17,940 nucleotides of DNA from Mollicutes bacterium PWAP (GTDB taxonomy: Bacteria; Bacillota_I; Bacilli_A; Mycoplasmatales; Metamycoplasmataceae). This document shows positions 2,357 through 13,118 of the stretch, piece after piece. Below the pieces are notes generated by a model. That model saw only the letters and a program-made list of their open reading frames with translations, was not told where the DNA came from and made no database searches. Numbering within the stretch: the first letter of the stretch is position 1; each line of letters begins with the position of its first letter. The stretch spans positions 1-17,940 of the forward strand of contig JAIFTM010000001.1 in NCBI GenBank assembly GCA_019661745.1, written 5' to 3'. Position numbers and translations under genes: made by a program.

Positions 2357-4753
2357 TTATTTTTTTCTCATATCCATTAATAATTTTATGTATTCTTGAT
2401 CATTTTTTTTATTTCCTAAACGAACACCTTTTAATTTAAGATCATCAGTAAAAGACATTGATCTAAACATAGCAGTATTTTCTAAATAATAATTGTAATC
2501 TGTTTTATTCATAGAATTAAGTTTTTTATAGTCATCTTTATCTAAATGAACTTTAAGTAAATCTAAATTAGAAATAACTCTTGAAGCTTTTGAAGATTTA
2601 GGTAAAACTACATAACCAGCATCTAAAATGTATTTTTGAAGTATATTAGCAGGAGTTGTATTATGTTTTGCTGAAATAGCATCAATTGTTTTTATTTCAT
2701 CTTTTGTTAAAGCGGAATCTTTATATCAAAAATTAGGATTATAGTAAGGTCTTATAGAAGAATATCCCATAAGATTAATACCTTTTTCTTTACAAAAAAT
2801 TTCTATTTTTTTAATTCTTTGAATAACTGAGGCAATAATTTGTAAATCAGAAGGATATTCTCCAGTTTGTTCTTTAATATATTCTATTTCTTCAATAGTG
2901 AAGTTTGAAACTCCAACAAATCTAACAAGACCATTATCTCTTGCTCTCATAGCTTCTTTATAAGCAATTAGATTTTCTTCATTACCACATGAAGAATGTA
3001 AAAGAATAGTATCTAAAAAAGTAGTATTTAAGTGCTCTATTGATTTTTCAATTGATTTATATGTATTATATTTATAATTCAAAGAATGAATTTTAGTTGT
3101 TATTCAAAAATCTTCTCTTTTAACATTGGATTTTGGTCAAGAAAGTCCAATTAATTCTTCATTAAAATAAAATTGTGCAGTATCAATGTGTTTATATCCA
3201 TTATTTAGAGCTGCAACAATTGTTTCTTCAACTTGCTTGGGATCGTTTATTTCTCATGTACCTAAAGCAACTTTAGGCATATTTTTTATATTTGTTTTAA
3301 TCATAATATTTTTTTCCTTTTCTTTTTTATATTTTATTTTATTTATAATAATTGGTTTTACTCTACTCATTGATAGTAAAGCTTCTTTTATGCCTTGAGT
3401 TCCAAAACCAGAATTTTTAACACCTAAAAAAGGTAAAATATCAGGTCCTCTAGAACTACTTCTATTTAAATTTACTGTACCTGTTTCCATTTGAACGGCA
3501 ATTTCAAAAAATTCTTCATCATTTTCAGTGAAAACAGAACCTTGCAATCCATAACTACTTTTATTGTGAATTTTAATCGCTTCTCCCAATTCTTTAAATC
3601 TTATTATTGGAAGAATAGGTGCAAATGGTTCTTCTCAAGCCAACTTCATATCTTCTGTAATAAAATCAATTAATATTGGATCAACTAAAGTAAATTTTCT
3701 TCTACCACCATTTAAAATAGTGGCTCCTTTTTCTTTTGCATCATTCATTAATGAAATAGTATTTTTAGCTGTTCATTCATCAATTAAAGGAGTAACCATG
3801 TTTTCTTTTGTAGCAGTACCGACGGAAATCTTTGATACTTCTTCACTTAATCTTTTTGAAAGTTCATCGGCAATAGCTTCATCAACTAAAACCCTTTTTA
3901 TTGCTGTACATCTTTGACCAGAATAAGAGTATGCGCCTTTAATAATTTCTTTAACAGTTAAATCTAAATTCGCATTTTTAGTGACAATAGCAGCATCTTT
4001 GCCACCAAGTTCTAAAACTAATGGAATCATTGAAGTTTTTTCACTAATTCCAATACCAACTCTTTCTCCACCAGTAAAACTAATCATATTAACTTCTTCA
4101 TGTTCTACAATAACATCGCCAATTTTGCTTCCTCTACCTGTTACATAGTTAAAAGTACCTTTAGGAAAACCTGCTTTATCAAAAAGTTCAGCTACAATAG
4201 CGCCACTCAATGAACCTTGTGTTGCGCTTTTTGCAATAACTGTATTTCCAACTAAAAGAGCAGGGGCAATTTTAGCAAGCGAAAGATTAACTGGATAGTT
4301 AAATGGACTAATTGCCACAACAACACCAAGACTTTCTCTTGTTAAATGAACTTCTTTCCCTTCAATTTTATGAATAGAAGAGTCAACTATTTCATAGTTT
4401 TCTTCAAATTCAATGTATTCTTCAATAGTTTGACTTATGTAATAAACCGTTCTTCTAACTTCACTAAGACTACTTGACTTTGGTTTGGCAATCTCTAGAA
4501 TCATAGCATCAGCAATTCTATCTTCATTTTCTTCTAATAAAGAAACAAATTTTTTCATAAAAACAATTCTATCTTTGTATGTATAAAATTTTCATTTTTT
4601 ATAAGCTTTTCTTGCACTTTTAAATGCAAAATCAATTTCTTCTTTTGTTAAAGAAGGCACTGTTCCTGCAACTTTACCAGTTTCGGGATTCATAATTTCT
4701 AATTTTTCTTTTTTATCAATGAATTTTCCATTAATATATGCTTTTAATTCCAT
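2357..4753 (-). CDS. gapN: GapN-type aldehyde dehydrogenase read through into an aldo/keto reductase (798-codon frame)
   Basis: Residues 1 to about 475 match non-phosphorylating, NADP-dependent glyceraldehyde-3-phosphate dehydrogenase (GapN), which oxidises glyceraldehyde 3-phosphate to 3-phosphoglycerate with NADPH formation. Visible landmarks are SPFNYPVNLSLAKIAPAL (Asn152), LVLELGGKDAA (Glu248) and GQRCTAIKRVLV (catalytic Cys282), at almost the numbering of streptococcal GapN. Residues 484-798 are a complete aldo/keto reductase with tetrad Asp524, Tyr529, Lys554 and His586, then FVGVSNF and LPKSSK, plus a C-terminal tail of about 50 residues. There is no stop codon between the two: the GapN end (VKPIIINK) runs through a short Lys/Glu linker into the reductase Met484. 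That Met also has its own Shine-Dalgarno sequence. The frame could therefore be a true fusion or two cistrons that lost a stop. AGGAG precedes the GapN ATG. It follows a MarR-type gene by 9 bases. Confidence 0.85.
3302..3321 (-). promoter_or_regulatory. internal ribosome binding site and ATG for the reductase half
   Basis: In minus-strand reading AAAAGG lies about 11 bases before an ATG (3302-3304) that sits exactly at the start of the aldo/keto reductase homology. The same bases encode the Lys/Glu-rich linker of the read-through protein. This is what a normal intercistronic start would look like, so independent initiation of the reductase is plausible even if the upstream frame stays open. 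Confidence 0.5.
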
Positions 4754-4762
4754 ATTATTCTC

Positions 4763-5068
4763 CTATTTCAATAAATCTAAACCCTTTTGAGAAAGTTTGA
4801 TTAAGGTAATTCTTTTGTCATTTATATTTTTTTTCTTAATAGCGAAACCTTTTTTAACTAATGAATTTGAAATTGTTGTAACCTTAACTTTAATAGAATT
4901 GATTTCACCACCGTATCCATCTAAAATTATTTGAACCATTTCATTCATTTTTAATTCTTTAGCTTTTAAAGTAAAAATAGCCATCAATTCTTCAAATGTT
5001 AAATTGTTTTTATAAGCAATTTTTACATATTTACTTTTTATATTTATAAATTTTTCAAAATCTTTCAT
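4763..5068 (-). CDS. MarR-type winged-helix regulator
   Basis: Predicted dimeric DNA-binding repressor of 101 residues. The C-terminal half reads as a winged helix: SIKVKVTTISNSLVKKGFAIKKK (helix-turn-helix with recognition helix) followed by the wing NDKRITLIKLSQKGLDLL, which carries the family's Asp-Lys-Arg and the helix LSQKG. The N-terminal half (FEKFINIKSKYVKIAYKNNLTFEELMAIFTL) is helical but short compared with typical MarR proteins of about 140 residues, so this is a compact form. An AGGTG sits 4 bases from the ATG. It is the first gene of an operon with the GapN/reductase frame and most likely controls that operon, perhaps in response to aldehydes or redox stress; this last point is inference from position alone. 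Confidence 0.75.
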   Translation of the reverse strand: MKDFEKFINIKSKYVKIAYKNNLTFEELMAIFTLKAKELKMNEMVQIILDGYGGEINSIKVKVTTISNSLVKKGFAIKKKNINDKRITLIKLSQKGLDLLK

Positions 5069-5170: not shown

Positions 5171-6039
5171 TTATTTAACAAATTCAGCGGCTCCTAAAAT
5201 CCCTGCTGAATTTCCGCTAATTGCAAGATTTATAGAAATATTTTCATACAATAAAAGGAAGAAGTTTTCTTTTGAGTTGTTTTTTAATAATATTAACTAA
5301 AATAGTACCGTCATTTGAAGGCCCACCGCCAATAATTATATTATTTATATTCATTGAAAAAATCATTGTAGTAATATGATTGATTAAATATTGCAAGCTA
5401 TCTTAAAGTATTTTAATAAATTCTTTTTCTTTTTTCAATTCAATTAAATTATATTTTCTTATATCTTCTTTTAAAGAGAAATTAATTCCGGCATTTTTAA
5501 TTTTATTTTGAATATTAATTGCACTTGCTTCAGCTTCAATACAACCATTTAATCCACAATTTAATTTTTTTTAATCCAAAAATTTCTCCATGACCCAATT
5601 CGCCTGCAAAATCATTTTCTCCTTCAATTAATTTTCCATCAATAATAATACCACCACCAATACCTGCCCCGAGTGTATACATAATTAAATTATTTTTTCT
5701 TTGTAAGTATTTTTCAGCTAAAGCAGCGGCATTTGCATCATTAATAACGCTAATTTTTTTATTATTATATTTCGATATTTATTTTTTTACGTCAAAATTT
5801 TCTAAACCTAAGTTTACAGAAAAAGTTATTTTTTTTGTTTTATTATCTACAAAACCTCGAATAGTAATGCTAATCTCCGTATATTCATTTTCTTTTATTT
5901 GTAAATTTTTAAAAATATTGCCAAAAATATTTTCTTTTACAGTTGGGATCGTATGATGTTTTTCAATAGTTCCATTTGTTTTAACAATTCCAATTTTAGA
6001 GTAAGTTCCACCTAAATCAATTACTAAAATTTTTCTCAC
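5171..6039 (-). pseudogene. ROK-family sugar kinase, broken
   Basis: Remnant of a ROK kinase (glucokinase / N-acetylhexosamine kinase type) that would phosphorylate a free sugar in the cytosol. The start is taken as GTG with AAGGAGG upstream, giving MRKILVIDLGGTYSKIGIV, the ATP-binding loop of the family. Further pieces in order are INDANAAALAEKY, LGAGIGGGIIIDGKLI, FAGELGHGEIF, the zinc/ROK signature NCGLNGCIEA, IIIGGGPS, and AISGNSAGILGAAEFVK. They are split by an in-frame TAA at 5779-5781, a one-base frameshift at an A8 run (5565-5572), a second in-frame TAA (5403-5405) and another frameshift near 5243-5252. It is the last gene of the EIIB-RpiR operon, so its substrate was probably the hexose released from the imported disaccharide. 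Clearly inactive as read. Confidence 0.88.
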
Positions 6040-6141
6040 AATATTTATTCTATTCCTCCTTGAAGTAAGTAATACAAAATAAATTCTTAAAAATTTTATC
6101 ATTTCAAGGTTTGCATCAATTTCTATTGAAAAATCACTTGT

Positions 6142-6678
6142 TTAAGGCATTTTAATAATTTTAGCTTCTTTAAATTTTTTAACAACGCCTATATTAGTTG
6201 CATCTGTAGTCAATAGAAAGTCTTTTTCTTGTATCCCATTTATAGAAATATATTTTTCTACAGTTAGAGATTCCATTGTTCTTGAAATAAAAAATGTTTT
6301 ATAGTTATATTTTTTAATATCATTTAATTTTGAGACCAATATAACTTTATATCTATTTATTTTTAGTAATTCTTTTAAAAAGCAAGCGGTAGGACTACAA
6401 CTTTTTGATGTAACAATAATTATATTTTCATCTTTAGATTGATTTATTAAATTTAAATATTCTTTTGTTTTATTGAAATTTGCTTGCATCGATTTATTTA
6501 TTGAAGATATAAGATTTCCAAAATTATCAAAACCTTTTCTTCTACAATAGCGACTAATGGTTACATTACTAATCCCAGTTTCCAAAGAAACTTGTTTCAT
6601 GATTTCTATAAGTTTATTATTCTCAATACTACTTTTAAAATATTTGGATAATTTAATATCATTTTCATTTTTTGACAT
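6142..6678 (-). CDS. RpiR-type transcriptional regulator, short form
   Basis: DNA-binding protein of 178 residues with the two-part RpiR layout. Residues about 25-60 form the helix-turn-helix: MKQVSLETGISNVTISRYCRRKGFDNFG matches the family pattern of a Ser/Thr-Ile-Ser-Arg-Phe/Tyr-Cys recognition helix followed by KxGFxxF. The rest resembles a reduced SIS (sugar isomerase) domain, with strands ENIIIVTSKS and YKVILVSK; SIS domains of this family normally bind a sugar phosphate. RpiR proteins usually have about 280 residues, so the effector part is trimmed or degenerate. It lies between EIIB and the ROK remnant, 82 bases after the EIIB stop. It is the best candidate for the protein that binds the repeated TGAAAATATTTTCA sites in this window. 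There is no strong Shine-Dalgarno sequence. Confidence 0.78.
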   Translation of the reverse strand: MSKNENDIKLSKYFKSSIENNKLIEIMKQVSLETGISNVTISRYCRRKGFDNFGNLISSINKSMQANFNKTKEYLNLINQSKDENIIIVTSKSCSPTACFLKELLKINRYKVILVSKLNDIKKYNYKTFFISRTMESLTVEKYISINGIQEKDFLLTTDATNIGVVKKFKEAKIIKMP

Positions 6679-6760
6679 TTTTTCTACTTTTTTTAATTAT
6701 ATAAAGTTAAATAAAAGCCATCTTATAATGATATCTTAATAAGTTTTATTTTCCTAATAA

Positions 6761-7054
6761 TTATTTTGCAGTTGCAATAACTTTTTCAGAATTAGCTAAA
6801 GCATATGCAGCAGGTTCAATAACAACAACCGGTATTTTTCTAGCCACTAATTCTTCAAATTCTTCTTGTAAATAAGAAACTTGTGGTCCTAACATAAAAA
6901 TTTCAAATTCGTTAACCATTCCTTTTGCCGTTTCGGAACCATGAGGTTCAACTCTACCAGTCATCCCATTTTTTTTATAATAATTTTCAATTGATCTTTC
7001 TAACATTAATGTTGACATCCCTGCTGAACAAGCTAATAAAATATTTAATTCCAT
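6761..7054 (-). CDS. PTS lactose/cellobiose-family EIIB
   Basis: Cytosolic phosphocarrier of 97 residues that passes phosphate from EIIA to the sugar during uptake through EIIC. The N-terminus MELNILLACSAGMSTLML is the phosphocysteine loop of the lactose/cellobiose (chitobiose) EIIB family, with the active-site Cys at position 9. FEIFMLGPQVSYL and IPVVVIEPAAYALAN are the following strands in the usual order. Full length and undamaged, with AAAGGAG 8 bases before ATG. It is the first gene of the operon EIIB-RpiR-ROK and is preceded by two copies of the regulon palindrome. Its partners EIIA and EIIC in this window are both broken, so as sequenced it has no intact cognate permease here. The exact sugar (cellobiose, chitobiose or another beta-disaccharide) cannot be told from EIIB. 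Confidence 0.92.
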   Translation of the reverse strand: MELNILLACSAGMSTLMLERSIENYYKKNGMTGRVEPHGSETAKGMVNEFEIFMLGPQVSYLQEEFEELVARKIPVVVIEPAAYALANSEKVIATAK

Positions 7055-7078
7055 TATTTTTTCTCCTTTATTTTAATA

Positions 7079-7138
7079 TGAAAATTATTTCACTTTTATA
7101 ATTCCTTTTTAAAAAGTGAAAATATTTTCACTTTTTAA
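7079..7138 (-). promoter_or_regulatory. double operator and promoter of the EIIB operon
   Basis: The outer site is a perfect 30-bp palindrome (7109-7138) centred on the core TGAAAATATTTTCA (7117-7130). The inner site (7079-7092) is an imperfect copy, TGAAAATTATTTCA. Between them in minus-strand reading lies TATAAA (7095-7100), a plausible -10 box, so one site overlaps the -35 region and the other covers the transcription start. Centre-to-centre distance is 38 bases. The layout is that of a repressor acting through two dimers. The outer palindrome also contains the stop codon of the GH1 gene (7135-7137). Confidence 0.7.
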
Positions 7139-8605
7139 TTTAAAGATTCAATGAATTTAACTTTTTCTAAATCAATGACTTCTTCAAGTTTTTTGTATTC
7201 TTTAAACATTCCATTATTTCTTGATGTTTCTCTTAATCATTCAGCAGATTTTTTCTCTTTACAATCAAGCGTTTTTCTATCAAATTCAATAAAACCATAA
7301 GTATTTTTATAAACATTTACTCATGATAAACAATCAAATATTGCTCACATATGATAACCAAATATATTTGAGCCTTCTTCAATTGCTTTATGCAAGTACT
7401 CTAAGTGTTCATTAACAAAAGCAATACGATAATCATCTTGGATTTTTCCAGTTTTATCTTTGTATTTATTTTCATCTTGAACATCCATTCCATTTTCAGA
7501 AATATACATTGGTATATTATTGTATCTTTCTCTAATTAATTTTGCACCATCATAAATAGCTTTTGGAAAAATTTCTCATCCTCTAAAAAAATTTTTTGCG
7601 TGCATTTTTTCATTCATAAGATTCAGAATATCTATGTAGAATATTTTGATTTTTATCAATTTTCTTGGGGCTTGAACTCTAGCAGGAGCATAAAAATTCA
7701 TTCCTACAAAATCAACTTTTGTTTTTGAGATAATTTCCAATTCATCTTTTGTATATTTGGGGAGAAGATTTTCTTTTTCCAATAATTCTTTTAAATCTTT
7801 AGGTATTTCGCTTTTAACCATCATATCTAAAAAGGAAAAATTATGAAGCATATTAAAAATATCTGCTGTTTTTTGATCTTTTTCAATAATATTTTTGCCA
7901 TATTTTGCATAAGCAGGCGCAATATTTACAATAACCTCTATTTTGGCCAATTTATTGCTATATTTTTGGATTACAATATTTACAGCTTTACAATGAGCCA
8001 AAATAGCGCCATAAGAAGCATCAACAAATTTTTTACTATCATTTAACTATATTTGGATAATGATTACCTGTAATATATCCATGTAGTGTTGGAACAATGG
8101 TTTCATTCATAGTGGCAATATATTTAACTTCATCTCCATATTTTTCAAAAATAAAATCAACAAATTTTGCAAATTCATCAGTAACTTCTTTGTTAATTCA
8201 ACCACCTTTTTCAAATGCTCATAATGGCAAATCAAAATTATGAATAGTCATTATTAATTCAAGATTATTCTTTTTAGCTTCAGCAATCAAAAAATGACAG
8301 TATTGGATTGCATCTTTATTTTTAGTTTTTCCATCAGGAAATATTCTTGTTCAACTAAAAACTAATCTAACACTATTGGTGCCTATATTTGAAAAAAATT
8401 TTAAATCATTTTTTCAATATTCAATAAACATATTAGTTTTTCTACTGTTTCTCCATTGAAAAATTTTTCTGGTTTAGTTTCTTTCATTATGTCTCAACCT
8501 GTTTTTCTTTTTAATTGACCTTTTTTATAACCATCTGATTGTTCTGATGCAGCTGTGACACCTCAAAGAAAACCGTTTGGAAATTTCAATAATTCTTTTT
8601 TTCAT
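7135..8605 (-). pseudogene. 6-phospho-beta-glycosidase (GH1), broken
   Basis: Remnant of a glycoside hydrolase family 1 enzyme that splits a phosphorylated beta-disaccharide after PTS uptake. Landmarks in order are FPNGFLWGVTAASEQSDG, NSVRLVFSWTRIFPDG, the acid/base Glu in TMNETIVPTLHGYITG, FHN-like MLHNFSFLD, VDFVGMNFYAPARVQAP, RGWEIFPKAIYDGAK, the nucleophile in YISENGMD, and SWVNVYKNTYGFIEFD. The ATG (8605) with AAGGA upstream is out of frame with the first domain because of an A7 run (8596-8602). Other shifts lie near 8437-8445, near 8035-8047, and as a compensating pair at about 7663-7666 and the A/T run 7585-7597: the alternative frame between them reads YEWKNARKNFFRGWE, the family's usual approach to RGWE. 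It is read divergently from the MupG-type gene across a shared operator. Confidence 0.9.
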
Positions 8606-8659
8606 TTATTTCCTTCTTTCAAAAATATTATTATTTTTTATCAGTTGATTAATTATTAA

Positions 8660-8696
8660 TGAAAATATTTTCACTTTCATAAGTTTTAAATATTAA
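8660..8696. promoter_or_regulatory. operator and promoter region between the GH1 and MupG-type genes
   Basis: Perfect core TGAAAATATTTTCA at 8660-8673, extended by ACTTT on one side. Read on the plus strand, TTTTCA (8668-8673) could serve as -35 and TATTAA (8691-8696) as -10 at exactly 17 bases spacing, starting transcription a few bases before the MupG-type ATG at 8715. The same palindrome lies 54 bases upstream of the GH1 start on the other strand, so one site can control both directions. Confidence 0.6.
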
Positions 8697-8714
8697 AATA
8701 TCTAATATATATGT

Positions 8715-9855
8715 ATGAAAAAGAAAAAATTAGGAATATCACTTTATCCAGAAAAAGTGAATGAAAAAGAATTAATTGTTTATATAAATGATGCTGCTAA
8801 AGCAAAATTTGAATATGGTTTCATTAATTTTTTATATATGAAAAACAATAAAGAAGGTTTGGGGAAACTTGAAAAATATAAAAGAATTTTATTGCATGCA
8901 AAAAATAAAGGAATAAAAGTATTTGGCGATGTAAATCCAGAATTTTATGAAGATTTTGGTTTACAATTGAAAGAATTTGATTTTTTTAATGAAATGGGTT
9001 TATATGGTCTACGCTTTGATGAAGGCGCTGCTCCACAAGTTATAAAAGAATTAACTACTAAAGAAATGCATATTCAAATAAACGGTTCAAATTTTATAGA
9101 TTTAAAAACATATAAAGATAAAAATGTTGATCTTGCCATTTTGAATGCTTGTCATAATTTTTATCCTTTAAAATTTACAGGCTTAAATAAACAAAAATTT
9201 ATTGAATATTCAAATTATTATAATACTCAAAAAATTGACGTTAGCGGTTTTATTTCAATTGATAATGATGGATCAAGAATAGGATCATGAGATGTTAATG
9301 ATGGAATGCCAAGAATTGAAGAACATAGAGATATGAATATCTTTAATGTTTTAGAAGATTGCCATAAATATAACGGCATTAATATTTTAATTATTTCTAA
9401 ACATAGATTATCGGTTGAATAAATTTTAAAAATGAATAAAATAAATGAAAAGTTTCATTATTATAAAGAACAAAAAATATTTAATTTAGAAATCAAACTA
9501 AGAGATCATATTTCTTTTATTGAAAAAAATATTTTACTTAAAAATAAAGGTTTTAAGCACGCAAATAGACTAGATGAAACTGATTTTCATATTAGAAACA
9601 CATACAGCAGAATAAGATAAAAAAATGAAAACATAATTTCTTTAGATAAAGAAAATAAATTATTTAAAGAAGGAGATATTTTAGTATTAAATAACAATTC
9701 AAACAGATATAAAGGAGAGGTTTGAATTGTGAAACAAGAAATTTACAACTATCAAAATAGATTTAATTTAGTAGGAACTATTACAAAAAAAAGACAAAGA
9801 AAAATTACAATTTATTTTTGGAGGAGATGAATTCGTAATGAATGAGAAAACATAA
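8715..9855 (+). pseudogene. MupG/DUF871-family glycosidase, broken
   Basis: Remnant of the DUF871 family, whose characterised member MupG is a 6-phospho-N-acetylmuramidase cutting a phosphorylated disaccharide from peptidoglycan turnover. The N-terminal TIM-barrel shows LGISLYPEKVNEKEL, GDVNPEFYEDFGL, GLYGLRFDEG, and HNFYPLKFTGLNKQKF, followed by VNDGMPRIEEHRDM. The C-terminal domain is visible downstream: HANRLDETDFHIRNTYSRIR, LFKEGDILVLNN, NRYKGEVWIVKQEIYNYQNRFNLVGTI and FGGDEFVMNEK. The frame is broken by TAA at 9420-9422, TAA at 9618-9620, and a one-base excess in an A8 run at 9785-9792. The final stop overlaps the EIIA start (TAATG), so the two formed one operon. Almost no leader precedes the ATG. 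Substrate specificity in this organism is unknown; a wall-less cell has no muropeptides of its own. Confidence 0.87.
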
Positions 9856-10105
9856 TGTCAAAAATTAATTGAGAACAGGTTTCAATGAATTTAATTACTG
9901 AAAGTGGACAAGCAAAAAGCGCCGCTATGATTGAAATGAGAGCTGCAAGAAAAAATGATTTTGAAAAAGCAGAAGAGAAAAACTTGATTTTAAAGTATTA
10001 TTTTTACATGCTGAAGATCAATTACTCACAACACAAACAATTATTGCTTTAGCAGAAGAAATTATAATATTGCACAAAGAAAAAGCATTATTACAAGAAA
10101 AATAG
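9855..10105 (+). pseudogene. PTS lactose/cellobiose-family EIIA, broken
   Basis: Remnant of the helical EIIA that carries phosphate from HPr to EIIB. The first part reads VSMNLITESGQAKSAAMIEMRAARKNDFEKAEE, the standard first two helices. The last part, in another frame, reads LFLHAEDQLLTTQTIIALAEEIIILHKEK, with the phospho-accepting His of the HAxD motif and the metal-binding Asp. Between them about 20-25 residues normally present (end of helix 2 and start of helix 3) are absent and the frame is shifted near 9977-9985, so this is a deletion rather than a simple homopolymer slip. The His that usually follows the Asp is Gln here. The start overlaps the MupG-type stop. The final codons lie inside the terminator stem. 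Confidence 0.85.
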
Positions 10106-10136
10106 TAAAAACTTTTTTTCTTGTAATAATGCTTTT
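10081..10136 (+). terminator. strong terminator of the MupG-EIIA operon
   Basis: A perfect 22-bp stem (10081-10102 with 10115-10136) around a 12-base loop, followed by a T run. The ascending arm encodes the last codons of EIIA and the stop codon sits in the arm-loop junction. Confidence 0.9.
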
Positions 10137-10153
10137 TTTATTTTACAAAAACA

Positions 10154-10188
10154 AAAAAATACTCATGATAATTTCATGAGTATTTTTT
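10154..10188. terminator. bidirectional terminator between convergent operons
   Basis: AAAAAATACTCATGA and its exact complement form a 15-bp stem with a 5-base loop, with A and T runs on the two sides so it can work in both directions. It overlaps the final stop codon of the minus-strand pseudogene that starts at 10803. Confidence 0.85.
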
Positions 10189-10803
10189 AAAATGTAATGT
10201 AACCTTTTTTATTATATTTTTTAATATAAACTTTAGAATCATAGTCCATTTCATTACCATCAATCACTTGGACTAAATTCTTTTGAAGCAAGAATGATCT
10301 ATAGAGCGTTATTTTTTAGCAGTAATTTTATATACTTCATCTGAAATTCCGAATAAAGTTCTATCACCCTTCATTCACTCAATATATTCAACTTTAACTT
10401 TTTTAGAAAAAATACCTTTTCTAACATTGCAACTAATTCTATTTTTAGTTCCATTTTTAGAAAAAAATTGTAAAGTTATTCTACATATTTTTGGTGAATT
10501 TTCATAAGTGATTACTTTTAGCTCTTGGAAAGTTTTTCCTTTAGTTTGAAGTTTTGCACCTAAAAATACATCTTCATGATTATATTTTGGTTTAATGTCT
10601 TTTAAAACATAGTCTATTACATGTTTAAATATTAGTTGTTTATTTGTTTCTTTTTTAATAGTTAATGTTCTTCCAAAAGTTAATATTCTTCTATACTCTG
10701 AAATTAAAGATGTGTATTTTCTTTCATCGTTTAATTCTTTATAAGATGATTTATTATCTTTTGTTTTTGTTTGATTTTTTGTTTATTTATTGTTATAAGA
10801 CAT
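10187..10803 (-). pseudogene. unknown soluble protein, broken
   Basis: I do not recognise the family. The frame starts MSYNNK and is stopped at codon 7 by TAA (10783-10785), then continues open in the same frame for about 157 residues: KELNDERKYTSLISEYRR, KQLIFKHVIDYVLKDIKPKY, GKTFQELKVITYENSPKIC, and RISCNVRKGIFSKKVKVEYIEW (with TGA as Trp). After a second TAA (10309-10311) at an A6 run, a shift to the next frame gives a sensible C-terminus NLVQVIDGNEMDYDSKVYIKKY ending at 10187. There is no alternative ATG, GTG or TTG early in the open part, so the stop at codon 7 is likely inactivating. No signal peptide or membrane segment is seen. It is the last gene of the operon that begins with the small membrane protein at 13491 and EIIC. 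A coding sequence of about 205 residues is the likely ancestor. Confidence 0.6.
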
Positions 10804-10813
10804 ATTTATATTA

Positions 10814-11023
10814 TTACATTAATATGAATACTAATATTCCTGCTGTTAAAAATATTACAAATAATATAGAACAAACTATTCAGGATCATTTATGAAACTG
10901 TGAATGTCTATATGAAATATTGCCATATCTAATTTTTCTATATCTAAGAGAAAAACAAATAAAGAATGGAATTAATATACAAACTAAAAACAATATTAAT
11001 AATACAATCGAAAGTGTTACCAT
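10814..11023 (-). CDS. small two-segment membrane protein of unknown function
   Basis: A 69-residue protein that only appears when TGA is read as Trp (two such codons, in HKWSWIV). Residues about 2-25 (VTLSIVLLILFLVCILIPFFICF) and 47-68 (IVCSILFVIFLTAGILVFILM) are strongly hydrophobic, joined by a basic loop RYRKIRYGNISYRHSQFHK, so a hairpin with both ends outside and the loop in the cytosol is predicted by the positive-inside rule. It lies 10 bases upstream of the broken soluble gene and 15 bases downstream of the membrane-anchored pseudogene, all in one orientation. The three look like one functional module. No family recognised. Confidence 0.6.
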
Positions 11024-11038
11024 AATAAAATTATTAAA

Positions 11039-11608
11039 TTAGATTTTTAAAGCTGTTTCTACAGCGCTATCAATAATTGAATCATCATCATCAACTAATT
11101 TATTTTTTTGTCAAACAAATGCTTGTTTAGCATCTTTTCCTTATGAAAACAATTCTTAAAGAATTGTTTTCATAAGTGTAACATCAATATTATTACCACT
11201 AACTTTTTGAGTAGTTTTAATATTTTTTAATTCTATTGTTATTTATTCTGCTCTTTTTTCAATATGAATTAAATCGTAAGCTAGTTTAACTAAACCATTT
11301 TTATATTTTGATGGTTCTTTTAATGTACTTGTTACGTCTCCTTCTTTTATACTTAATTTTTCAGCAGATTTTAAAACTTGTAAATGATTTCTATCATCAA
11401 TATCAAAAATTAATACATCGCCAACAATATGTTTTAAATGTGAAGAATCAGGAATAGATACAAAATATCTTACGCCATTATCATTAGCAATATTTACGGT
11501 TCAACTTTTTTTATGATTATTTAAAGCAATGCCAACACCAATAGCAGTACCACCAGCAAATAAAACTCCTAAAGAAGTTCCAAGAATAATTCAACTTTTT
11601 TTAGTCAT
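11039..11608 (-). pseudogene. membrane-anchored protein of unknown function, broken
   Basis: The frame starts MTKKSWIILGTSLGVLFAGG and holds one N-terminal hydrophobic segment (residues about 6-29) followed by a soluble part: HKKSWTVNIANDNGVRYFV, IVGDVLIFDIDDRNHL, and EGDVTSTLKEPSKY. The segment is an uncleaved anchor rather than a lipobox. TAA interrupts after LIHIEKRAE; the same frame then continues ITIELKNIKTTQKVSGNNIDVTL, hits two more stops inside a perfect 37-bp palindrome (11140-11176), and goes on GKDAKQAFVWQKNKLVDDDDSIIDSAVETALKI to the final stop. All parts share one frame, so the lesions are substitutions and an insertion rather than slips. Function unknown; the GDVLIFDIDD stretch resembles a small beta-barrel strand pattern but is not diagnostic. 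Confidence 0.6.
11140..11176. repeat. perfect 37-bp palindrome inside a decayed gene
   Basis: CTTATGAAAACAATTCTT is followed by a single base and then its exact reverse complement. In the reading frame of the host gene it contributes two stop codons. There is no T run after it, so it is not an ordinary terminator. It looks like an inverted duplication. Confidence 0.85.
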
Positions 11609-11644
11609 TATTTAGCAACCTACATTTTTTTTACTTCTTCTTTT

Positions 11645-13118
11645 TTATCTTTCATTTTTTTGCTTTTTTTGTGCTCTTTTTGTTGAAAGAACAAATGGGA
11701 AATAAACACCAAATAATGTAGAAATTGATAGAATCGCAACTATTTCTGCTCTTCAATCGAATTGCGATGCAATTAGAAGGTATAGAAGAGGAGGAGGAGT
11801 TGTTCAAGGAGCTAATTTTTTTTGTTAGAGGAAGATTCATTCATTCAATTTTAATGGCAGCTATAGGTCATAAGACGGCAAGCATTGGTCCAAATACATA
11901 TGGAATAAAGTATTTAAAGTTAAATAGAATTGGAAATCCAAAGATAACTGGTTCATTAATTTCAAAAATTCCAGTCGGAAGCGCAAATTTTGCAGCCTCA
12001 TACTCTGAACCACCTTTAAGAATTCATAGAGTTAAAATAACTAAAGGTAATGTTCCACCGGCACCACCGATATATCCAAATCCATTGTAAACACCTTCAA
12101 AAAATACATTATGACCACCATTAATATTACCAATTAACAAAATAAGAGCAATAGGTCTAAAAATACCATTTAGTGTATTGGGCCCATGAATTCCGAAGAA
12201 GAATAAGAATGAAACCATGAATACATAAACAAGTAATATCCCAATATCAGCACCACTTTGCGCAAAACTAATAAATGGTTTTGTAACAACAATATCAATT
12301 ACATATGATAATGATTGAATTGTTCCATCATTTGTAATTGTTACTCCTTCATTAGCAAAGAAAAAATCATACCAACTGTAAAGTTTTAATACTGTAGCGG
12401 AAAGTAGTGTTAGAATAGCAGGTAATAATGCTGAAAAATCTCTGCCAACTGCCGGAGGACTCCACCAAGCATTTTAATTTGTAATTTTTCTGACTTCATT
12501 AAAAATGAATATAATTCAGGTCCAAGTATCTCAGCAACAATTGCCATAATTTCATGATTTGGGGCAAATATACCTATATCAATATCACTAGAAGAAGAAG
12601 AAGAAGAAGAAGAAGAAGAATAAAATTATTAACATTCCAACAGAAACAATTCCACTCATTATTGGATTTTTTGTTCTACGAATTGATGACATTGAAAAAC
12701 CAATTAATAATGTAGCATATAGTGTCAATTGACCTAATGTCGCAGTATTAATTTATCCAAAAAATATTTGGCCAAATTTCGCAATTTGTTGTCATTTATC
12801 ATCTAAAACTCATGTTGTATATCTATTTAATAATGATGAGGAAGCAACTGTTGTATAACCATTTGCATGAGCAATCAATCCTAAGATTGATGTTTTTTCA
12901 GCGCCCTATCCTGCAAAAACAATTGTAATAAATAATACTGCAACAGCGCCAGCAATTGTAAGATGTAGTGAAAGTGCAAATCCATCACGCAATGCAGAAA
13001 GGTGTTTTTGTTGACCTATTTTCCCTAATGGTTTAGTTATTTTTTGAAATCTTAATGAAGCTGGATTTTTCTTTTTCTTTTTTTCAGCTTTGGGTTTTTC
13101 TTTAGTTTTAGTAAACAT
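11645..13118 (-). pseudogene. PTS lactose/cellobiose-family EIIC, broken
   Basis: Remnant of the membrane permease that imports and phosphorylates the disaccharide with EIIA and EIIB. Landmarks: KIGQQKHLSALRDGFALSLHLTIAG at the N-terminus, then hydrophobic segments, IFAPNHEIMAIVAEILGPELYSFLM, WWSPPAVGRDFSALLPAIL (the family's PPAV motif), GADIGILLVYVFMVSFLFFFGIHG, TGIFEINEPVIFGFPILFN (EPVIFG signature) and APWTTPPPLLYLLIA near the end. Lesions: TAG at 12906-12908, TAA at 12753-12755, a frame change at the (GAA)10 tract (12591-12620), a one-base loss near 12472-12475, and a slip in a T8 run at 11816-11823. The ATG overlaps the end of the upstream small membrane protein gene by 11 bases and has AAAGGAG in front. 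The N-terminus is preceded by an unusual Lys-rich stretch. Confidence 0.9.
12591..12620 (+). repeat. (GAA)10 microsatellite in EIIC
   Basis: Ten uninterrupted GAA units (TTC on the coding strand). In the upstream reading frame they encode ten Phe and then a stop; in the frame that continues into the rest of EIIC they encode Ser (TCT). The tract therefore sits exactly where the frame breaks. Confidence 0.95.

Follow-up and report, generated by a model that had tools for sequence, protein, structure and literature searches.

Does a reading frame that joins a non-phosphorylating glyceraldehyde-3-phosphate dehydrogenase (GapN) to an aldo/keto reductase (AKR) encode one bifunctional enzyme, or is it an operon that has lost a stop codon? 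The question is raised by a locus in a stretch of 17,940 nucleotides from Mollicutes bacterium PWAP (hereafter, the window). An earlier note on this DNA had put forward both readings, a self-recycling redox enzyme and a recent stop loss.

One reading frame, two enzymes

On the minus strand of the window, a single open frame runs from 4753 to 2357 and encodes 798 amino acids followed by a stop (NCBI table 4, TGA read as tryptophan). The earlier note described this frame as uninterrupted, which is correct, and omitted its strand. Seven TGA codons fall within the frame, all tryptophan under table 4. Translation with table 11 splits the stretch into several shorter ORFs, so the single frame depends on the mollicute code. 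This code is supported by the conservation of two TGA-encoded residues as tryptophan, W54 being invariant and W373 nearly invariant in 34 aligned GapN sequences. A further one, W539, is leucine in all ten AKR relatives compared. In the 798-aa protein, Pfam places Aldedh at residues 14–466 (442 bits) and Aldo_ket_red at 495–749 (124 bits). The locus consists of the following features.

4763..5068, minus strand: MarR/SarA-like small regulator, directly upstream of GapN (PF22381, 21.7 bits, cut-off 27)
3338..4753, minus strand: GapN half, residues 1–472, non-phosphorylating NADP-type glyceraldehyde-3-phosphate dehydrogenase (PF00171, 442 bits; PDB matches)
3305..3337, minus strand: 33-base A-rich spacer, read as the 11-residue linker 473–483 and containing a Shine-Dalgarno match for the AKR (delimited by the ends and starts of relatives)
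2357..3304, minus strand: AKR half, Met484–Lys798 and stop (PF00248, 124 bits)

Mixed GapN and AKR alignments with the fusion misplaced one of the halves; therefore, the halves were aligned and modelled separately. Of the first mixed alignment, we kept only the AKR sequences and, for GapN, the positions where the sequences end; of the second, only the GapN sequences.

The first half is a GapN of the aldehyde dehydrogenase (ALDH) superfamily, with a full-length Aldedh domain and the catalytic Cys, Glu and Asn. When residues 1–472 were compared with solved structures, the top 11 PDB rows were all GapN, among them 3prl (452 bits) and the Streptococcus-type enzyme 1euh (447 bits, residues 3–470 matching 5–472), which shares the catalytic Asn, Glu and Cys. 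The 11 solved sequences have 474–505 residues and, unlike this fusion, no room for an attached AKR. The catalytic N152, E248 and C282 are invariant in the 34 aligned GapN sequences, and so are R101, R281 and R435, which we take to bind the phosphate. At positions invariant in ten relatives, the GapN half departs in 6.6% of cases, within the range of those relatives themselves (0–10.1%). Its model, built with its own relatives aligned, has pLDDT mostly of 80–98 per ten-residue block, with a dip to 63–78 at residues 431–460.

By its family, this GapN would oxidize glyceraldehyde 3-phosphate to 3-phosphoglycerate, making NADPH. The genome also encodes a phosphorylating GAPDH and a second AKR (G000:C14), which suggests that GapN is an NADPH-making side branch. 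GapN is described as the main NADPH source in JCVI-syn3A, essential in vivo (PMC6609329), and GAPN has been named the likely NADPH source in a marine mycoplasma (PMC10449156).

The second half belongs to the AKRs, as it matches PF00248 and has the Asp/Tyr/Lys/His tetrad. The tetrad residues, D524, Y529, K554 and H586, are invariant in 34 aligned AKR sequences. A script check confirmed these four, the three catalytic residues of GapN and Y475 exactly as the earlier note had listed them. Lys719 and Arg725, both nearly invariant across AKRs and presumably involved in NADPH binding, are also kept. Positions 637–638 we take to be the Asn-Gln pair near the nicotinamide in the cofactor site; here Q638 is kept, and N637, nearly invariant in AKR relatives, is replaced by leucine. 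With its own relatives aligned, the AKR half was modelled with block-mean pLDDT of 86–98 from residue 491 on.

The best solved match of the AKR half is YvgN (PDB 3d3f/3f7j, 118 bits), and the NCBIfam models DkgB and DkgA score 140 and 135 bits, both below the cut-off. The catalytic tetrad is shared with these YvgN-type AKRs. YvgN chains are 275–276 residues long, whereas the group of this AKR is mostly 291–319 aa: this is the length range of its 14 nearest relatives (P0121–P0134, 47–59% identity), except for one 201-aa piece. Two of these relatives carry a source name, one being assigned to a Mycoplasmatales bacterium and the other to Mycoplasma marinum. YvgN is described as a glyoxal/methylglyoxal reductase that also accepts glyceraldehyde and glyceraldehyde 3-phosphate in vitro (PMC5270733). 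The nearest characterized relatives being methylglyoxal and triose-aldehyde reductases, the AKR would spend NADPH on reactive aldehydes, and its kinship with YvgN, DkgA and DkgB points to methylglyoxal or triose aldehydes as possible substrates.

The junction retains an old spacer

To see where the two genes used to end and begin, we compared the junction with relatives, as the earlier note had proposed. Eight of 11 GapN relatives stop at the match to Lys472, five of these in NK, while the other three are longer. In genome G008, for instance, GapN ends in ...IIFNK, immediately followed by the stop. Further GapN relatives have tails of a few to about a dozen residues past Lys472, some of them rich in lysine, and the ancestral stop of GapN could have been codon 473 or slightly later. 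On the other side, the start of the nearest AKR relatives is no more than about four residues away from the match to Met484. Since GapN relatives mostly end at Lys472 and AKR relatives begin near Met484, the linker 473–483 is, judging by these boundaries, a former 33-base intergenic spacer.

The AKR also keeps its own translation start. Its ATG (Met484) is still present after the spacer and is preceded by the Shine-Dalgarno sequence that the earlier note had pointed out. Calculated with the 3' end of the 16S rRNA of the same genome, CACCTCCTTT, the duplex energy is -5.8 kcal/mol at the AKR start vs. -7.3 kcal/mol at that of GapN. A score at least as good as that of the AKR was found in the sampled DNA at 27 of 77 ORF starts and at 44 of 524 internal ATGs; hence, a match of this strength sets an internal ATG apart to a moderate degree only. 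An Rfam scan found no RNA family at the junction, a simple terminator scan found no terminator there on the strand of the gene, and promoter-like sites from a simple scan were no more frequent than in shuffled sequence. The sole 16S gene found lies on contig C14. The window itself carries tRNA-Ala(TGC) and tRNA-Ile(GAT) at 484–556 and 589–665 of the minus strand, beside ribosomal protein genes and not beside this 16S gene.

The earlier note had blamed one codon for the stop loss, TAT at 3329–3331 (Y475), as being one substitution away from a stop and lying where GapN proteins usually end. Neither argument distinguishes it. A single substitution would turn eight of the 11 spacer codons into TAA or TAG, and the stop expected from eight of 11 relatives is at codon 473, not 475. 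Codon 473, in turn, is more than one substitution away from TAA and TAG, so that a stop could not have been lost there by a single substitution.

Probable loss of a stop codon in an ordinary operon

Taken together, these observations make it probable that the locus is a regulator–GapN–AKR operon in which the stop of GapN has been lost, probably recently, and that the long frame yields a run-on product rather than a maintained bifunctional enzyme. Ribosomes starting at GapN would run on into the AKR and produce a protein of about 90 kDa (an estimate), while others would probably begin at Met484, yielding free AKR. The last predicted strand of GapN ends at residue 471, and residues 475–503 have pLDDT below 50 in the model built with GapN relatives, where the AKR half, having no relatives in the alignment, is modelled poorly, as was generally the case for the half whose relatives were left out. 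The fusion would be tolerated owing to the flexible lysine-rich stretch that follows this strand.

No special circumstances are needed for such a run-on. We counted close co-directional pairs of mechanically predicted ORFs (at least 100 aa each, with gaps from above -30 up to 100 bases) and asked whether the loss of the upstream stop alone would lead in frame into the downstream gene. This was the case for 35 of 214 pairs in the G008 stretches and for seven of 53 in the sample of the window's own genome together with the window, meaning that roughly one in six to eight stop losses at close pairs gives a fusion of this kind.

Thus, stop loss, which the earlier note had called recent, is the better of its two views, although comparison with relatives gives no reason to blame that particular codon at 3329–3331. 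The preserved spacer is what indicates that the loss is probably recent, and the original stop site is uncertain, because some GapN relatives have longer, even lysine-rich tails.

Could the missing stop be a sequencing error?

The explanation next in rank is that the stop is missing from the assembly and not from the organism, which would then make two normal proteins. We regard this as possible but clearly less likely. The genome is a draft (549,125 bases in 85 contigs, 80.9% complete), the spacer is A-rich, and this contig is the source of the sole copy of the fusion in the protein set. Moreover, other genes of the window, in a cluster of accessory sugar genes at 5779–12218, look broken.

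5779–6102: ROK, N-terminal piece
7135–8431: GH1, two ORFs with two frame changes
8715–9422: MupG ORF, N-terminal domain only
9729–10052: PTS IIA ORF, matching the first third
11631–12218: PTS IIC ORF, matching the last third

The two frame changes of GH1 fall within about 500 bases, and the ROK, MupG, PTS IIA and PTS IIC ORFs match part of their families only. Both real decay and local sequence errors fit these sugar genes; their being accessory suits real decay. To estimate how common broken genes are, we examined 23 sampled contigs (133,154 bases) and the window, some partial alignments aside. None of 42 sites with a counterpart in G008 (at least 60 bits) was split across frames; two multi-frame rows had overlapping query ranges and were read as tandem paralogues. 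The reverse comparison, with 44 ORFs having hits, also revealed no split gene, and the GapN-AKR ORF was the sole fusion flagged. Both comparisons speak against an error.

One enzyme or two?

The other view of the earlier note was a self-recycling redox pair in a single protein. As a selected bifunctional enzyme, it would have the AKR use up, on aldehydes derived from trioses, the NADPH that GapN supplies, in a closed NADP(H) loop. We consider this unlikely. The intact catalytic residues of both halves, together with Lys719 and Arg725, and the activity of YvgN, the nearest characterized AKR, on triose aldehydes (PMC5270733) speak for such an enzyme. On the other hand, the same fusion was found in no other genome among the matches listed, and the linker has not evolved away from intergenic sequence with a plausible ribosome-binding site.

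We searched for a second fusion in 5.8 billion proteins, using residues 470–798 as the query (E ≤ 0.001) and considering 3382 candidates of 439–1396 aa; the protein itself was the sole match. This search requires relatives to share exact five-residue words, and it could miss proteins of TGA=Trp organisms that had been shortened by prediction with the wrong code. In 147 related genomes, 86 of which had a match, coverage of residues 1–798 was seen, among the matches listed, in the genome itself only; the other matches listed cover one half each, with a spill of at most about 40 residues. Among the best 120 of 6846 matches listed in the GapN search, the longest besides P0001 has 559 aa. In this relative, P0005, a portion of the ALDH domain seems to occur twice, which may have arisen in assembling its 1.8-kb contig. 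Close relatives were also lacking: the matches listed (the best 120 for each half) reached at most 53% identity for GapN and 59% for the AKR, and the 59% match covers a shorter piece, the nearest near-full-length AKR being about 55% identical. A search of genome contigs for related loci, which may omit very near genomes, returned three distant Pseudoalteromonas ALDHs only. In the parts of the literature that we consulted, neither a GapN-AKR fusion nor a self-sufficient pair was found described. Within these sets, the fusion is a single case.

A known protein of comparable build is AdhE, which consists of an aldehyde dehydrogenase and a C-terminal iron alcohol dehydrogenase, both halves acting in reduction. 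AdhE and the present fusion alike have a reductase after the ALDH fold within a single polypeptide, and a nicotinamide cofactor serves both domains; the difference is that the second domain of AdhE is an iron alcohol dehydrogenase and not an AKR, and that the present fusion was found once. In the 798-aa protein, Pfam listed PF00171, PF00248 and a weak LuxC match and no iron alcohol dehydrogenase family, so the protein is not AdhE-like.

Of the positions invariant in ten chosen relatives, 9.9% are altered in the AKR half, position 637 beside Gln638 among them, compared with 0–6.7% for each relative. This suggests relaxed rather than tightened constraint on the AKR half, or merely a longer branch. 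The excess divergence does not favour fresh selection as a GapN-AKR pair, although a longer branch would look alike.

Some independent evidence comes from the neighbourhoods of these genes in other genomes. An AKR lies within 300 bases of GapN for three of 142 AKR genes vs. 0.31 expected (Poisson p 0.004), and within 3 kb for five vs. 1.08 expected (p 0.005). The count covers 142 AKR rows among the matches listed, from 96 genomes that also have a GapN row, and assumes a genome size of 1 Mb for all; the two rows of the genome itself were left out, as was one row each of G253, G268, G274, G282, G283 and G284, for which the count included no GapN row. The three immediate pairs, tandem in G091, divergent in G009 and convergent in G104 (loci L066:6264–8520, L067 and L068), belong to three families of the order. 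The test is post hoc, having been conceived after the first cases, and the AKRs of these pairs are 27–33% identical to this one. The most similar AKRs, those of G006, G035 and G007, are on another contig than GapN or far away from it. We see here weak independent support for a possible functional link between GapN and AKR, a lead rather than proof. Among the pairs compared, that of G091 is the single tandem within 300 bases. Its GapN (6264–7694) and AKR (7705–8520) have the same order and strand as here and a 10-base gap with a Shine-Dalgarno sequence; it differs in that a stop is present, the genes are unfused, and the AKR is about 27% identical to this one.

The self-recycling enzyme proposed earlier finds little in its favour beyond the intact active sites: there is no other fusion in the sets searched, the linker is the former gap between the genes and includes the ribosome-binding site of the AKR, and, once a stop is lost, about one in six to eight close pairs can be expected to run together like this. 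Stop loss in an ordinary operon explains the locus best.

A variant would be a triose-aldehyde dismutase without net cofactor, created by a very recent fusion, with the AKR also still made alone. In it, GapN would oxidize one glyceraldehyde 3-phosphate, and the AKR would use that NADPH to reduce glyceraldehyde 3-phosphate, glyceraldehyde or methylglyoxal. We think this quite improbable. Least likely of all is early decay of the operon, with the AKR on its way out: the five broken-looking accessory genes at 5.8–12.2 kb, the divergence of the AKR half at conserved sites and the second AKR would agree with it, but the 798-codon frame is intact although 269 of its codons are one substitution away from a stop, the catalytic residues are kept, and GapN is described as essential in a minimal mycoplasma (PMC6609329).

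The operon and its possible role

In the proposed operon, the regulator precedes GapN, and only nine bases separate its stop from the ATG of GapN. The NCBIfam scores of the regulator, 20 bits for Staph_reg_Sar and 19 bits for MprA, are both far below the cut-off. A MarR/SarA-like protein in this position might sense aldehydes or the redox state for the operon. The stress response that Streptococcus mutans mounts alike to fructose, methylglyoxal and hydrogen peroxide is described as having gapN among its core genes; methylglyoxal also induces several AKRs of that species (PMC12077213). It is a reasonable inference that GapN and AKR form a regulated operon for NADPH supply and the reduction of reactive triose aldehydes.

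Should the missing stop prove to be an error, this ordinary operon remains. If the run-on protein is made, it would be a fusion enzyme caught at birth, in which not only both domains but also the former spacer and ribosome-binding site can still be recognized, and any benefit of covalently coupling an NADPH maker to an NADPH user would become testable. The adjacency of GapN and AKR in three families of the order may reflect a shared role in dealing with triose-derived aldehydes, in organisms where GapN can be the main source of NADPH.
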